From an uncultured Holophagaceae bacterium (GTDB lineage: Bacteria; Acidobacteriota; Holophagae; Holophagales; Holophagaceae), in the NCBI GenBank assembly GCA_903927605.1, contig CAIYNT010000287.1, forward strand, positions 1-12,135: a stretch of DNA of 12,135 nucleotides, given 5' to 3'. A program made the position numbers and the translations under genes. The notes below the pieces were generated by a model. It was not told the origin of the DNA. It worked only from the letters and a program-made list of their open reading frames with translations, and searched no databases. Position 1 is the stretch's first letter. Each line of letters starts with the position of its first letter. Positions 1,658 to 10,095 of the stretch are shown here, in pieces.

Positions 1658-2283
1658 AGATGGCTGCCTCCCGTGCTTCCGGCTTGGTCCTTCTGACGGT
1701 TGTGACCGGCTTTATTCTGGGCGGTGCAGGCCTATGGCTGGGGATAGCGGAAGGCATCATCGCCCTCTGGGGGTTTGGTATCGCCTGCTTCCTGCAGGTG
1801 CCTCCCGCCTTGAGTCTCCGTGGACGCATCAGTGGAGGGCTTGGCAACATTGGGTTGGAACGCGAACGCGTGACCTTGCGGGTCGTCAGCCACCTCCTGC
1901 GCCTCCTGGCCCTGGGCATGGCCCTGGCTTCCATCGCGGCGCTGATGGGTGATGGTCCTCCCCCTCCCCAAGCCAGCCTCATCACCCTGGGTCTGGCAAC
2001 TCTGGCCCCGGGACTCCTGGCGGCCCTCTGGCTAGCCAAGCGGGACCTCACTGGGATCCATCCGGCCCTGGACCTGGACGCCGCCCGGACCCGCACCCTG
2101 CTCGAACTGGCCGTCCTGCTGCTGGCGGGCAGTCTCCTGGGCCGCTGGTTCCCCTGGGCAGACGCGGTCACCGGCCTGCTGCTTGCCCTGCGTCTGTTCC
2201 TCGAGGGGCGCACCCTGGCCAAGGGATCTACCCTCCCAGCCGCTGCGTGTGGTGGCTGCGGGAGTGGCTGCGGCTGCGGGTAA
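1654..2283 (+). CDS. Small membrane protein resembling a degenerate cation diffusion facilitator, with Cys/Gly-rich tail
   Basis: A 209-aa protein with about six hydrophobic segments (roughly 8-28, 31-53, 78-100, 107-128, 147-166, 169-184), the number found in the membrane domain of CDF metal transporters. The last two helices (A-A-R-T-R-T-L-L-E, then FPWADAVTGLLLALRLFLEG) follow the CDF TM5/TM6 pattern in which a 'DP.aGlliAl' helix follows the metal-site helix. The Asp/His residues expected at the CDF zinc sites are not visible: TM2 reads EGIIALWGFG and TM5 RTRTLLE. There is no cytoplasmic C-terminal CDF domain. The protein ends in a short tail with four cysteines (199, 202, 206, 208) among glycines, a plausible metal-binding motif. 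The start at 1654 overlaps the ettA stop, with a weak GGAA about 9 bases upstream. CDF kinship is inferred from the helix pattern; transport activity is doubtful and the function unknown. Confidence 0.75.
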
Positions 2284-3140
2284 TGAAGGTTCTTGAACTT
2301 TTCTCCGGGCTGGGCGGTTGGCGCTGCGCCCTCCGGGACCGTGGCAGCATCGTCGCGGCCTATGACGTGAGCGAGGCCGCCAACGCCACCTACGCCCTCA
2401 ATCACGGACATGAGCCCAGAACCAGAGAACTGGCCACGCTGCCTGCAAAGGAACTGGTGGGGCTTGGGGCCGATACTTGGCTTCTGAGTCCGCCCTGTCA
2501 GCCCTTCTGCCGCATGGGGAACCATCAGGGGCTTGCGGATCTGCGGTCCAAGGCCTTCTGCCACCTCATGGATCTCTTCCGACAAGCACCGCCGGACCGC
2601 CTAGTGCTGGAAAATGTAGGGGGATTCCTGGGCTCTGATGCCCATCTCCTGTTGTCGGAGCGCATTCATGCCCACGGCATGCATCGGCTCGATCTTCAAG
2701 CCTGCCCTAGCCGTTTCGGCGTGCCCAACCAGCGACCCCGCGTATTTATCGTGGCGTCTCAAAGGGGCCTGAAAGCGCTTCCAATGCCGGATCTGCAACC
2801 TGGCCCCCTGGCGGATTTCCTGGATGCTGAGGAGGACGGACGACTCTACCTGGGGCTCGAAATTTTGGCCCGCCATCGCCACGGGATGGATCTGGTGGTG
2901 CCCGGTGATCGTCGCAGCACCTGCTTCATCGGTGGCTATGGCCGGCGTTTCGTGGGTAGCGGACCCTTTCTGAAGACGGATCGAGGGGTGCGGCGCTTCT
3001 CCCCCGCTGAAGTTGCGCGTCTCCTTGGACTGCCGGTTGGATTCCGGTTTCCGGAATCCCTGTCTTTCGAGTCCCGCTATCGGCTGCTGGGCAATGGGTT
3101 GTCCATCCCGGTTGCAGCCTGGGTACTGGACCACCTGTAG
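2283..3140 (+). CDS. C5-cytosine methyltransferase of the Dnmt2 (tRNA m5C38 methyltransferase) type
   Basis: SAM-dependent cytosine-C5 methyltransferase, 285 aa. Motif I LELFSGLGG 4-12; motif IV SPPCQPF 69-75 with catalytic Cys72; motif VI LENVGGF 109-115; motif VIII NQRPR 149-153; motif X RYRLLGN 265-271. Three things point to Dnmt2 rather than a restriction methylase: the very short variable region, the CFIGGYG block (214-220; animal Dnmt2 has CFTKGYG) followed by G-S-G, and the SPPCQPFxRxG form of motif IV. Dnmt2 enzymes methylate C38 of certain tRNAs, and a Geobacter homologue has been reported to act on tRNA-Glu. The ATG at 2283 was chosen because the Met begins directly at motif I; an in-frame ATG at 2247 would add a 12-residue Trp/Arg-rich leader lying over the previous gene's tail. 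The start overlaps the preceding stop as TAATG. No endonuclease gene is adjacent. DNA methylation remains possible. Confidence 0.9.
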   Translation: MKVLELFSGLGGWRCALRDRGSIVAAYDVSEAANATYALNHGHEPRTRELATLPAKELVGLGADTWLLSPPCQPFCRMGNHQGLADLRSKAFCHLMDLFRQAPPDRLVLENVGGFLGSDAHLLLSERIHAHGMHRLDLQACPSRFGVPNQRPRVFIVASQRGLKALPMPDLQPGPLADFLDAEEDGRLYLGLEILARHRHGMDLVVPGDRRSTCFIGGYGRRFVGSGPFLKTDRGVRRFSPAEVARLLGLPVGFRFPESLSFESRYRLLGNGLSIPVAAWVLDHL

Positions 3141-6103: not shown

Positions 6104-7516
6104 ATGAACCCGGCCCGGGCCCTGTTGGTGGACGACGACCCCACCATCCTTGAGGTGGTGGGTACGCTGCTGTCTCGGCACGGCCACGAAGTGGTTGGGA
6201 CCGGATCCGGCTTGCGTGGGGCCCAGTTCCTTCGTGGCGAGCACTTCGACCTGGCCGTGGTGGACCTCATGCTGCCGGATCTGAGCGGCCTCGAGTTGGC
6301 CCGTCAGGCCGTGGCCAAGCCCGACACGGTGGTGGTGGTGCTGTCGGGCTCCACGTCCGTGGAGACGGCCCTCCAGGCCGTAAAGATGGGCATCTACGAC
6401 TACGTGCCCAAGCCCTTTCGTGCGGAGGAACTGGAACACACCCTGCTACGTGCCATTGAGAAATCGCAATTGAACCAGGAGAACAAGCGGCTGAGGGAAC
6501 AGATCCAGGGGCAGACGCCGGGACCCAAGATGGTGGGGCGTTCTGAAACATGGCAGAACCTCCAGAATCTGTTGCACCGGGTTGCACCCTCGCCTTCTAC
6601 GGTGCTCATCACGGGCCCTTCGGGCACCGGGAAGGAGCTGGCGGCCAAGGCCATCCACCAGTGGAGTCCGCGGGCCCAGGGGCCCTTCGTGGCCATCCAC
6701 TGCGGGGCCATCCCGGAGAACCTCCTGGAGGATGAACTGTTCGGTCATGTGCGCGGGGCCTACACGGATGCCCGCACGGACCGGCCTGGCCGGTTCCAAC
6801 AGGCCGAGGGTGGAACCCTGTTCCTCGACGAGATCGGCACCATGCCGATGAACCTCCAAGTGAAGCTGTTGCGCGTCATCCAAGAGCGGGAGTTCACACC
6901 GCTCGGTTCGACGCGGACCATAAAGGCTGACTTCCGCCTGCTGGCCGCCACAAACGAAGATCTAGGAACCCTCGTGGAGCAGAAGCGCTTCCGTGAGGAC
7001 CTCTTCTACCGTCTGAACGTCATTCCCGTGCAGTTGCATCCGCTCAAGGAACACCCCCAGGACATCCCCGTCCTGGTGGCGCACTTTGCGCGCAAGTTCT
7101 CACGGGAGTTGGGCCTTCCCCTGAAGCAGGTGGAGCCCGCTGCTTTGCAGGCGCTGGAGGCCTACGGCTGGCCGGGTAATGTGCGAGAGCTGGAGAATGC
7201 CGTGGAGCGGGCCATGGCGCTGGGATCCGATCCCGAGCGACTGCTGCTCCAGGATCTTCCCGCTTCCATTGCCGGCGTCATGCCTTCCGTGGCTTTCCCG
7301 AGGCTGCCTCAACATCGGGACCTGGGACGATTCCTGGAGGACCTGGAGCGCCACCTGATCTTGGAATCCCTTCAAGCCACAGGTTGGAACAAGAGTGAGA
7401 CGGCACGGCGTCTCGGCATGCGCCGGACCACGCTTCTGCACCGGTTACGCGCCCTGGGCATCCCCTCGGATCCCATGGGCGAGGCAGAATCCACACTGGC
7501 GCGGGAGCCACGTTGA
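6104..7516 (+). CDS. Sigma-54-dependent response regulator, NtrC family (REC - AAA+ - Fis HTH)
   Basis: A 470-aa cytosolic transcription activator that, when phosphorylated, hydrolyses ATP to open sigma-54 promoters. The receiver domain (1-120) has the acidic pocket D10-D12, phospho-acceptor Asp54 in VVDLMLPDLSG and Lys103 in VPKPF. The AAA+ domain (about 143-370) has Walker A GPSGTGKE (171-178), Walker B LFLDEIG (239-245), RFREDLFYRLNV carrying the arginine-finger region (295-306) and the WPGNVREL sensor II block (356-363). The sigma-54 contact loop reads GAYTDA (218-223) instead of GAFTGA. A Fis-type helix-turn-helix lies at about 425-452. The Met at 6104 is where the receiver fold starts; the frame is open back to 5798, but that extension is antisense to comEC and low-complexity. 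The Shine-Dalgarno is weak. No sensor kinase or rpoN is in the window, so the signal and regulon are unknown. It overlaps the next gene at TTGA. Confidence 0.95.
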   Translation: MNPARALLVDDDPTILEVVGTLLSRHGHEVVGTGSGLRGAQFLRGEHFDLAVVDLMLPDLSGLELARQAVAKPDTVVVVLSGSTSVETALQAVKMGIYDYVPKPFRAEELEHTLLRAIEKSQLNQENKRLREQIQGQTPGPKMVGRSETWQNLQNLLHRVAPSPSTVLITGPSGTGKELAAKAIHQWSPRAQGPFVAIHCGAIPENLLEDELFGHVRGAYTDARTDRPGRFQQAEGGTLFLDEIGTMPMNLQVKLLRVIQEREFTPLGSTRTIKADFRLLAATNEDLGTLVEQKRFREDLFYRLNVIPVQLHPLKEHPQDIPVLVAHFARKFSRELGLPLKQVEPAALQALEAYGWPGNVRELENAVERAMALGSDPERLLLQDLPASIAGVMPSVAFPRLPQHRDLGRFLEDLERHLILESLQATGWNKSETARRLGMRRTTLLHRLRALGIPSDPMGEAESTLAREPR

Positions 7517-8184
7517 TCCGCCTCCTTCCTCGTCCAGTGCTGGTTCTGCTCCTGAGCTGCTGCCCGATGTGGGCCTGGTCTCCGAAAGTCCACGAAGCAC
7601 AGACGGCCAAGGCCATCCGCCTGTTGCCACGCCGCATGGCAGCTCTGCTGCGGGCCTACCCGCAGGCTCTGCTTGAGGGTGCTCGCGGTGTGGCCAACGA
7701 CCAGCCCCCCACGGTGGAACAGGTGGAAGCGCAATTCCGCACGCTTCTGCGTCTCAGCGAGGAACACCGTCGTCCCGAGGAGATCGTCCGCGATCTCGGG
7801 GTGCTGGCGCATCAGGTCCAACTGCTGACTGATCCCTCGGCCCTGGAAGGGGTGAGCCCTCTTCGGGAACAATTCGAGGCCTACGCCGACGAACACCTGG
7901 CCCACCTGCTGGTGGCCCAGGAGCCGTACTGGGCATCCACGGGTGCCCTGGATCCCGGCCCGCCCCTTCGCCGGTGGATGACCATCAAACAGGAACGCAA
8001 CAGGCGCCTAAGGGAATGCTTTGACGAAGGCACGGGTCGGCGGATCGGACCCTGGGATGAGCTGTCACTTCCCTTTGCCCAGCTGCAGTTGGCCTTCTCC
8101 AACGGCGTTCATGCCACCACCAACCTCTGGATCCTGGTCTGGCGGGCCGCCGGGGATCAGTGGGAAATCCCGGCGGGACCGTGA
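7513..8184 (+). CDS. Exported protein, possible divergent zinc phospholipase C / S1-P1 nuclease superfamily member
   Basis: A 223-aa protein starting with TTG at 7513, whose last two bases lie in the regulator's TGA stop (TTGA), so translation is likely coupled. Residues 1-21 form a signal peptide: Arg/Pro-rich start, VLVLLLSCC core, then M-W-A. Cleavage after Ala21 would leave Trp22 as the new N-terminus, followed by SPKVHEA with His27. In the zinc phospholipase C / P1 nuclease fold an N-terminal Trp and a nearby His bind zinc. Other candidate ligands are LAHQVQLLTDP (99-108; His100, Asp107), His128 and His200; the 'H......D' helix resembles the family's HyxgDxxqP motif. The protein is mostly helical, as that fold is. 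Family assignment rests on these sparse motifs and could be wrong. A lipoprotein reading (LLSC) is an alternative. Its pairing with the regulator suggests shared expression. Confidence 0.72.
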   Translation: MIRLLPRPVLVLLLSCCPMWAWSPKVHEAQTAKAIRLLPRRMAALLRAYPQALLEGARGVANDQPPTVEQVEAQFRTLLRLSEEHRRPEEIVRDLGVLAHQVQLLTDPSALEGVSPLREQFEAYADEHLAHLLVAQEPYWASTGALDPGPPLRRWMTIKQERNRRLRECFDEGTGRRIGPWDELSLPFAQLQLAFSNGVHATTNLWILVWRAAGDQWEIPAGP

Positions 8185-8271: not shown

Positions 8272-10095
8272 ATGGGCACCTACACTCGCCTCGGGTCCTA
8301 CCTGCTGGCCTCAGAGCTGGCCAGTGATCCTTTTGGTGCCGTTCATCGCGCGGTCGTCATCACTGGTAGCAACTTCGATCGCCATGTGCTGGTGCGAACT
8401 TTCTCGGAGGAGCTGGTTCAGGCGGGCATGGGCGTCCGACTGGCTGAGGCGGGCCGGGTAGCGACTCTTCTAGGTGGCTCAAAGATCTTCGGACTGGGTT
8501 ACCGGATCGAAAGCGGGAAGACGCCCCTTGTTGCCTGGGATCATGTGCCGGGTCGTAGTCTCGCGCAGCTCATCGACAAGGCGAAACAGGAACAGATCCC
8601 CTTCGGTGTGGATCACGCCCTCACCGTGATCCAGGGCGTGGCCCAGGGTATCGTGCAGATGCAGGCCAAGGGTGTCAGTCACGGCGTACTCAGCCCCCAC
8701 AGCGTGTGGGTGAGCTTTGAGGGGACCACCCAACTCGTGGATGCGCCCTTTGCCGCGCTGGCTAAGGGCATGCTGGCCAAGGCACCCTCCGCCAAGCACA
8801 AACTGGCCCCCTACCTCCAGGGGCCTGACAACGAAGCGCTTCAACAGGATTTGTTTGCCCTGGGTGCCGTGCTCTACGAGCTCCTCACCTTTGAATACCT
8901 GCCTGTTGGAGGTGACCTCCAAGCGGTATTGGACCAAGCCACCCTCAAGGCTGCCCAGGAGGATGCCCCCCTCCCCGCAGAGATCCGCGCCTTCCTGGGT
9001 CGGCTGCTGCTGGGCCGCCAGTCCTTTACCACGATGGAAGCCTTCAATGCAGAGCTTGAACGCGTGCTCTACGAGGGCGAGTACAGTCCTACTACCTTCA
9101 ACATGGCTTTCTTCATGCACACACTGTTCCGGGAGGAGAACGACCGGGACGCCACCGCCATGAAGGCGGAGCAGGGTGACAACTACCTCGCCTACACTGC
9201 TGCCGGTGAGGCATTGCGCAGTGGCGCTACCCGCATCGAGCCAGGCTTTGACCAAGCCGGGGGACCGGAAGTCAATCCAGAGAAAGTCCTTGTCAAGACC
9301 GCTGCCATGGTCATCGGAGGAGTACTCGCCCTCGCGGCGGTTCTCGGGTCGGGCTACTTCTTCTTTGGCCGCTCCAAGCCAGATTCCAACATGCAACAAC
9401 AGTTGGCGGAACTTCAGCTTAAACTCACGAAATTTGAACAGGATAAGGCCGACCTGGACGCCAAGGCCAAAGCCGAAGGAGAAAAGACCACCCAACTGCA
9501 GAAACAGTTGACTGAAACCAAATCCGCCGAGGAGAAGGCGAAAATCCAGAAGCAGATTGAGGAGGCGCAGCAGCGCAAGCTGGATCTGGAACGTCAACAG
9601 AAGGCTGCCGAGCAGAGGCTGGCCGAGCAGAGGCAGAACGAGCAGAGGCTGGCCGAGCAGAAACAGGCTTCGGAAAGCAAGCCCGCAGTGCCGCCACCAC
9701 CGGCACCTGAGATCCCCAAACCTCAGCCCGTGCCAGAATCGCCGAAGCCCGCGCCGTCGATGACACCCACGGCTTCGCAGCCTGCACCTGCCACCGCCCC
9801 CGTCTACGAATCCGCCCGCATCGTGAACCAGTCTGCCCCGATCTATCCTCAGCGGGCGATCCAGATGCGCTGGGGAACCAACCAGGATCAGAAGGTGCGA
9901 TTAAAAGTCTTTGTGGGCGAACAGGGTCAAGCCCTCAAGGTGTCCGTGATCGAAGGTGTATCGGGCTCCTTCGGGTTCGAGGAGGCTGCCATCGAAGCCG
10001 CCAACAAATCAACCTTCAGCCCAGCCACGCGCGACGGTAAGCCGGTACGCGGGTGGACGCCGGAAATCGTCTACAAGTTCCAGAAGCGCAACTGA
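8272..10095 (+). CDS. Pseudokinase - transmembrane - coiled coil - TonB C-terminal domain fusion protein
   Basis: A 607-aa inner-membrane protein. Residues about 5-268 follow the Ser/Thr protein kinase fold: FGAVHRA (21-27) as the nucleotide loop end, a catalytic-loop equivalent HGVLSPHSVWV (137-147), VDAP (156-159) at the DFG position, LAPYLQG (178-184) at the APE position and DLFALGAVLYELLT (193-206) as subdomain IX. Catalytic residues are gone: the beta-3 Lys is Arg42 (VLVRTF), the HRD Asp is Val139, and the loop Lys and Asn are both Ser. Only Asp157 of DFG remains, so it is a pseudokinase. One membrane helix spans about 341-365. A long Gln/Glu/Lys coiled coil (about 372-468) follows, then a Pro-rich linker (470-510). 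A TonB_C-like domain closes it (about 513-607; APIYPQRA near 522, FEEAAIEA 569-576, FSPATRDGKPV 582-592). The topology implied is kinase-like domain inside and TonB domain in the periplasm. No exbB/exbD is nearby. Confidence 0.88.
   Translation: MGTYTRLGSYLLASELASDPFGAVHRAVVITGSNFDRHVLVRTFSEELVQAGMGVRLAEAGRVATLLGGSKIFGLGYRIESGKTPLVAWDHVPGRSLAQLIDKAKQEQIPFGVDHALTVIQGVAQGIVQMQAKGVSHGVLSPHSVWVSFEGTTQLVDAPFAALAKGMLAKAPSAKHKLAPYLQGPDNEALQQDLFALGAVLYELLTFEYLPVGGDLQAVLDQATLKAAQEDAPLPAEIRAFLGRLLLGRQSFTTMEAFNAELERVLYEGEYSPTTFNMAFFMHTLFREENDRDATAMKAEQGDNYLAYTAAGEALRSGATRIEPGFDQAGGPEVNPEKVLVKTAAMVIGGVLALAAVLGSGYFFFGRSKPDSNMQQQLAELQLKLTKFEQDKADLDAKAKAEGEKTTQLQKQLTETKSAEEKAKIQKQIEEAQQRKLDLERQQKAAEQRLAEQRQNEQRLAEQKQASESKPAVPPPPAPEIPKPQPVPESPKPAPSMTPTASQPAPATAPVYESARIVNQSAPIYPQRAIQMRWGTNQDQKVRLKVFVGEQGQALKVSVIEGVSGSFGFEEAAIEAANKSTFSPATRDGKPVRGWTPEIVYKFQKRN
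9607..9666 (+). repeat. Four tandem 15-bp units inside the coiled coil of the pseudokinase-TonB gene
   Basis: Units start at 9607, 9622, 9637 and 9652. Each is a variant of GCCGAGCAGAGGCTG encoding (A/N)EQ(R/K)(L/Q). Units 1 and 3 differ only in their first two bases. Because the unit is a multiple of three, expansion or loss would change coiled-coil length without a frameshift. Confidence 0.85.

Follow-up and report, generated by a model that had tools for sequence, protein, structure and literature searches.

TonB ordinarily acts as a force arm of which hardly any part is cytosolic, and receptor Ser/Thr kinases of the PknB/StkP type have one transmembrane (TM) helix and an extracytoplasmic (PASTA) domain, in the place of which the protein described here has a TonB C-terminal domain (TonB_C). 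Its gene lies on the forward strand of a 12,135-nucleotide stretch of DNA from an uncultured Holophagaceae bacterium (contig CAIYNT010000287.1; the whole stretch is called the window below), and the product consists of a pseudokinase domain, a TM helix and TonB_C, a domain order for which we use the name class i. PknB/StkP-type kinases have the same fold and are, by sequence, the best PDB matches of the pseudokinase domain, whereas class i is catalytically dead. With the TonB of the ExbB-ExbD-TonB system class i shares the TonB_C fold, the single TM helix and a Pro-rich periplasmic span; unlike that TonB, it has about 338 residues with the pseudokinase ahead of the TM helix instead of a short tail, no adjoining exbBD, and other TonB_C proteins in parallel. 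In agreement with the original prediction, made from the letters of the window alone, no exbBD was recognised in the window, and in 12 related genomes exbBD lies at least about 49 kb from class i. Since both the short cytoplasmic N-terminus and the exbBD linkage are missing, class i is not TonB proper.

On architectural analogy, the nearest precedent for class i is GltG. GltG (PglI) and GltJ (AgmX) likewise combine a cytosolic domain, a single TM helix, a periplasmic helical region and TonB_C (passages in PMC3169522 and PMC5349195), and a two-hybrid assay shows an interaction of GltG with AglR, a motor protein (passage in PMC3169522). GltG differs in having an FHA domain in the place of the pseudokinase, a dedicated AglRQS motor and a role in gliding; no FHA domain is among the Pfam matches of the window protein at E ≤ 1. 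Class i is filed here with those TonB-like transducers that, as GltG does, carry a signalling head in the cytosol. The transmembrane pseudokinases MviN/ActPs3, EssB/YukC, GLW and ActPs2 also have a dead kinase fold and, in several cases, a C-terminal TM helix (sections of PMC12599244). However, the changes from HRD Asp to Asn and from beta3 Lys to Arg given there for ActPs2 are matched in class i by the Arg alone, with V139 at the Asp position, and GLW at HRD and poly-Leu/Trp at the beta3 Lys, given for the GLW proteins, are replaced by HGV and VLVR. Class i is thus neither a GLW nor an ActPs2 pseudokinase, and it is set apart from all these proteins by its HG.L.P motif, its occurrence in Acidobacteriota and TonB_C across the membrane. 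The main text of that review of bacterial pseudokinases contains no occurrence of TonB and none of Acidobacteri (PMC12599244). As the original prediction had suspected, a literature search judged by listings and some passages, with most subscription journals outside it, gave no paper describing the pseudokinase-TM-TonB_C architecture.

Architecture of the window protein

The gene and the parts of its product are as follows.

8272..10095, + strand: coding sequence of the class i protein (pseudokinase-TM-TonB_C), 607 residues
8262..8265, + strand: GGAG, likely ribosome-binding site, 6 nt 5' of the ATG (sequence inspection)
8284..9141, + strand: pseudokinase domain, residues 5-290, on the inferred cytoplasmic side (structure prediction and PDB comparison)
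8395..8397, + strand: R42 at the VAIK Lys position (alignment of close relatives: R in 123 of 125 rows, K in one, gap in one)
8680..8703, + strand: HGVLSPHS (137-144) at the HRDxKPxN position, with Asp, Lys and Asn all substituted
8740..8748, + strand: DAP (157-159) at the DFG position (D157 and P159 in every one of the 125 close rows)
9082..9138, + strand: juxtamembrane motif YSPTTFNMAFFMHTLFREE (271-289), a near-invariant family hallmark (alignments)
9286..9360, + strand: single TM helix, residues about 339-363 (structure model and hydrophobicity scan)
9385..9672, + strand: residues 372-467, predicted as two long helices and presumed to form a periplasmic coiled coil (structure model)
9673..9807, + strand: Pro/Ala-rich linker of low model confidence (sequence and structure model)
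9814..10080, + strand: TonB C-terminal domain, residues 515-603 (Pfam, structure and PDB comparison)

The pseudokinase-TM-TonB_C architecture of the window protein is well supported. The kinase-fold pattern previously read in the N-terminal part corresponds to a predicted kinase fold (residues 5-290), and structure prediction and PDB comparison likewise support the TonB-like fold proposed for the C-terminal part (residues 515-603), whose nearest matches are the C-terminal domains of true TonBs in structures with receptors. The Pfam kinase models score below their cut-off on the protein, and TonB_C is recognised by Pfam. The replacement of the VAIK Lys, the HRD Asp and the catalytic-loop Lys and Asn in this protein is confirmed, V139 and R42 standing in for the HRD Asp and the beta3 Lys, so that the protein lacks the make-up of an active Hanks-type kinase; the single TM helix, the helices presumed to form a coiled coil, the Pro-rich linker and TonB_C follow in the model in the order expected.

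Spread and conservation of class i

Class i is a large, conserved and apparently undescribed pseudokinase-TonB family across several acidobacterial lineages. The sample comprised 149 Acidobacteriota genomes, other phyla being covered through the source names of protein-database entries only. With P0001 as query, 50 of the genomes matched at E ≤ 1e-12, a few of these matches being other kinases; a 23-row profile placed class i in 49, near full length in 46 and partial in three (G109, G111 and G137). The sorting into class i and the class ii described below rests on our judgement of match span and open-frame length, and the 49 genomes are a floor, since the eight best candidates per genome were scored; G075 and G113, with partial class i-like matches, were left out of this count. 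Of 7,996 proteins scored in a profile search of the protein database, 1,020 matched at E ≤ 1e-5, and TonB_C stands in the precomputed Pfam column of all 120 matches listed out of these 1,020. Distant members have the same domain order, with Pfam TonB_C above cut-off in eight of eight and Pkinase in five of eight, and the alignment agrees. The sources are named Acidobacteriota, Thermoanaerobaculia or Holophagaceae or are unplaced, with the exception of P0111 ('Polyangia'), a partial protein 74% identical to that of the window. Two metagenome-assembled genomes named 'Bacillota' (L042) and 'Deltaproteobacteria' (L045) carry Holophagaceae-type neighbours and are probably mislabelled; they and P0111, all with Holophagaceae-type genes, are probably misbinned or misnamed. 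One genome (G125) holds, besides an ordinary copy, a second, divergent class i copy (L089) that is 34% identical to P0001.

Of 125 close relatives aligned, all have Gly for the HRD Arg, not one retains the HRD Asp, and 123 have Arg at the beta3 Lys position. Loss of catalysis as a local event is rejected, since the HRD Asp is absent from nearly all aligned relatives; the close homologues with intact HRD whose existence would have spoken for it did not turn up. An alignment of more lineages, made of 23 diverse members and 120 profile matches (143 rows; P0122 is identical to the L095 row), keeps the HRD Asp in no row, the beta3 Lys in three and the DFG Asp in seven. Among a further 118 matches, gathered around a lineage with stronger kinase signal, two retain the HRD Asp and 57 the beta3 Lys, and the DFG Asp is absent from all. 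As read from these alignments, almost all of class i has lost the catalytic Asp, but not the beta3 Lys; to the question, raised with the original prediction, whether the same residues are lost in all homologues, the answer is nearly always for the HRD Asp and no for the beta3 Lys. Two class i relatives with the HRD Asp retained (P0305 and P0311, HGDVTPSNV) are possible intermediates between a live kinase and the pseudokinase.

The juxtamembrane signature has the family-wide form YSPTTFNxAFFMHxLFRE, in which, counted along the first row, T282, F283 and A286 never vary and N284 hardly does among the 23 diverse members, and TFNxAF/Y was found in 119 of the 120 profile matches. The exact motif was not matched in the class i loci L138, L143 and L147, L143 being off by one Ser. 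With distant members included, HG.L is invariant and the juxtamembrane motif near-invariant. Moreover, the kinase domain is under purifying selection: pairwise ratios of nonsynonymous to synonymous substitution rates (dN/dS) were 0.065-0.159 for the pseudokinase (10 pairs), 0.065-0.218 for TonB_C and 0.176-0.429 for the TM, coil and linker, values that are rough because dS is often near or above 1 and thus near saturation.

A companion with an intact kinase and the possible role of the pair

Beyond what had been predicted, the window protein seems to be one half of a pair whose other half is a relative with a receiver domain, an intact kinase and often TonB_C. This class ii, which the class i profile also picked up and which is usually longer than class i, consists of a receiver domain, a linker, an intact kinase with the motifs HRD[VI]SP[QK]N and DFG, a TM helix and, in most members, TonB_C. 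Pfam scores Pkinase at 134-150 bits in nine of nine members, TonB_C in six of nine and the receiver domain above cut-off in three of nine, and all 19 aligned rows share the VAIK Lys, HRD and DFG. TonB_C is present in 15 of these rows; L080, L125, L126 and L127 are without it and end right after the TM helix, and in all 12 sampled genomes with a class i protein of 46% or higher identity to the window's, the class ii match stops by model position 761 of 980, before TonB_C. The TonB_C of class ii L120 scores 38.8 bits on the NCBIfam model of the AgmX/PglI tail, for which the cut-off is 40. Class ii was found in 56 of the 149 genomes (class ii profile, E ≤ 1e-85, five best candidates per genome scored), the calls in G054, G042, G079, G101 and G109 being weak or partial. 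Both classes occur in 47 genomes, class i only in two, class ii only in nine and neither in 91 (Fisher p = 5e-27, uncorrected for shared ancestry).

When 62 kinase domains are placed in a tree, class i takes one side, and class ii and other kinases the opposite side (support 0.996, midpoint rooting). Twelve of the 20 other kinases fall within class ii and are evidently members or near relatives of it. To the eye, what follows the kinase in class ii looks similar to the juxtamembrane motif of class i. An active Ser/Thr kinase-TM-PEGA-TonB_C protein (L079:1280-3448, - strand, genome G012) was considered as an ancestor and rejected, its kinase grouping with other kinases apart from class i and class ii; since it falls away from both, L079 is probably an independent kinase-TonB_C fusion.

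The neighbourhood of class ii looks like clusters for B12 uptake. A receptor plug domain lies within 5 kb (about 3-4 kb) downstream of class ii on the same strand in nine of 21 genomes, by our judgement of the matches, and a FecCD-type permease follows class ii in 10 of 22 loci, a cobalamin riboswitch standing between the two in eight of these 10 and being absent in L111 and L113. The gene order in L120 and L109 reads BtuF-like, BtuC/FecCD-like, ATPase and TonB-dependent receptor. The genes are named as B12 genes from the riboswitch and from NCBIfam matches that, though the best, stay below curated cut-offs; for the two BtuF-like proteins only the general TroA-like model passes its cut-off. 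Class ii with TonB_C is accordingly named here as no more than a candidate signalling TonB for B12 uptake. Loci of class ii with TonB_C are L109-L123, L128, L144 and L145, several with a TonB-dependent receptor. Because the riboswitch precedes the uptake genes, these form a separate regulatory unit, and as the genomes are moreover partly related, the association of class ii with the receptor is linkage and not proof. This linkage, which does not extend to the window protein itself, lends indirect support to the earlier suggestion that an outer-membrane receptor is coupled to the cytosol.

We infer from these observations a partnership of the two classes, and put it a little short of even that class i serves a trans-envelope kinase-pseudokinase-TonB complex as the subunit without catalysis that docks at the outer membrane. 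Class i and class ii would assemble via their kinase domains and their TM and juxtamembrane segments, and the TonB_C arm would dock on outer-membrane partners, namely TonB-dependent receptors, in several lineages probably the one whose gene is near class ii. The pseudokinase, and hence the activity of the partner kinase, might then change with the occupancy of the arm, or alternatively the kinase might phosphorylate the pseudokinase and so tune the arm. In Holophagaceae the window protein would be the sole outer-membrane contact of the pair, the active kinase ending right after its TM helix: class i would supply the TonB_C that class ii lacks there, a distribution expected if one arm per complex suffices. 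That receptor state is read in this way by cytosolic Ser/Thr phosphorylation, with the TonB arms of a kinase-pseudokinase receptor pair as sensors, or that phosphorylation gates TonB, is a tentative proposal, possible with the balance leaning against it. Some pseudokinases activate or scaffold partner kinases, and MviN is a pseudokinase that is phosphorylated by PknB and recruits the FHA protein FhaA (sections of PMC12599244). If the proposal is true, a two-protein envelope signalling system would exist across several Acidobacteriota lineages, and a single step would connect protein phosphorylation with transport at the outer membrane. Class i adds a large, apparently undescribed pseudokinase family, and the pair offers a concrete test of the role of some among the many Acidobacteriota Ser/Thr kinases.

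Several observations weigh against such a complex. The co-occurrence ignores phylogeny, and both genes may merely mark the same old lineages; absences are soft, with eight (class i) or five (class ii) best candidates per genome scored. Class ii occurs without class i in nine genomes and class i without class ii in G111 and G147; in G147 no class ii was found with all 36 candidates scored, and G111 has a receiver-domain match that is maybe a class ii gene split by a contig end. The two classes were not adjacent in any locus inspected, and no receptor gene neighbours class i in the window. Furthermore, it is class ii that is linked to a receptor, and in some lineages only, and the riboswitch indicates that the uptake genes are transcribed on their own.

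Among other explanations, class i could be a TonB paralogue powered by ExbBD, with the pseudokinase merely a regulatory or anchoring head and force delivered to TonB-dependent receptors, which we consider unlikely. The nearness of its TonB_C to true TonB domains solved with receptors fits this explanation, as do ExbD-family and receptor plug domains in all 21 genomes tested and G016 (1.9 Mb, possibly incomplete), where class i and class ii are the sole TonB_C proteins found; however, 20 of the 21 genomes have other TonB_C proteins, one of which adjoins ExbB in G001, and the window has no exbBD near class i. TolA and TonB bind their motor through an SxHxLxS motif (passage in PMC12204202), whereas no His occurs in the most hydrophobic 21-residue stretch of any of 228 scored members (five of 233 unscorable), in a scan that favours hydrophobic windows. 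In five Geothrix-type loci the TonB encoded next to ExbB likewise has no His in the scanned stretch, so the scan does not discriminate. Another explanation, on which we place a rather low probability, is a structural or cell-wall scaffold like GltG/GltJ, SjdR or MviN, in which the TonB_C arm and the pseudokinase would hold an envelope machine without nutrient uptake. GltG is an FHA-TM-TonB_C protein of the Myxococcus Agl-Glt motor (passages in PMC3169522 and PMC5349195), and the TonB-like SjdR shapes septa and, according to a section title, is not involved in endogenous siderophore transport (PMC8262864). Next to class i, an MltG/YceG homologue adjoins the gene in six of 38 loci compared, a possible link to peptidoglycan. 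These six loci are a minority, though, and the genes found elsewhere are, by our reading of their sequences, ATP synthase (two loci) or glnA (four loci); no Agl/Glt-type genes were recognised in the window, and the class ii neighbourhood points to uptake. A decaying, functionless kinase, which the lost catalytic residues might suggest, has next to no probability, being already contradicted by dN/dS of about 0.1, by the invariant HG.L and near-invariant juxtamembrane motif across distant members, and by the confinement of class i to one side of the kinase tree.

Genes around class i

Holophagaceae have the class i gene within a fixed gene block; the block of the window, which is itself Holophagaceae-like, recurs in Geothrix. 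Its constant member next to class i is the following.

7513..8184, + strand: conserved upstream neighbour, a probable secreted protein (signal-like N-terminus, then AWSPxxHE... LGxLxHxVQ)

A homologue of this gene lies directly upstream of class i in 46 of 48 related loci, L036 and L044 beginning at or just before the gene. Its protein had no Pfam match and no PDB match better than E 0.36. The idea of a zinc phospholipase or S1-P1 nuclease, from a mature end starting with Trp, is not claimed, given the lack of such matches and a Trp that is not invariant (Phe in L035). Outside Holophagaceae no constant neighbour of class i was found, and a single conserved operon throughout the phylum was rejected, the neighbours varying by lineage. 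The loci with MltG/YceG beside class i are L095, L098, L100, L129, L133 and L134 (Pfam-checked in two), four of which also have a RuvX homologue. In three genomes of one lineage a second, shorter TonB_C protein is encoded immediately upstream of class i (G030:C151:3502-3720, G119:C129:2750-2968 and G145:C26:6993-7214). Finally, a gene for a C-5 cytosine DNA methylase (Pfam) stands amid a housekeeping block at 2247-3140 of the window and is found in 33 of the 48 related loci.
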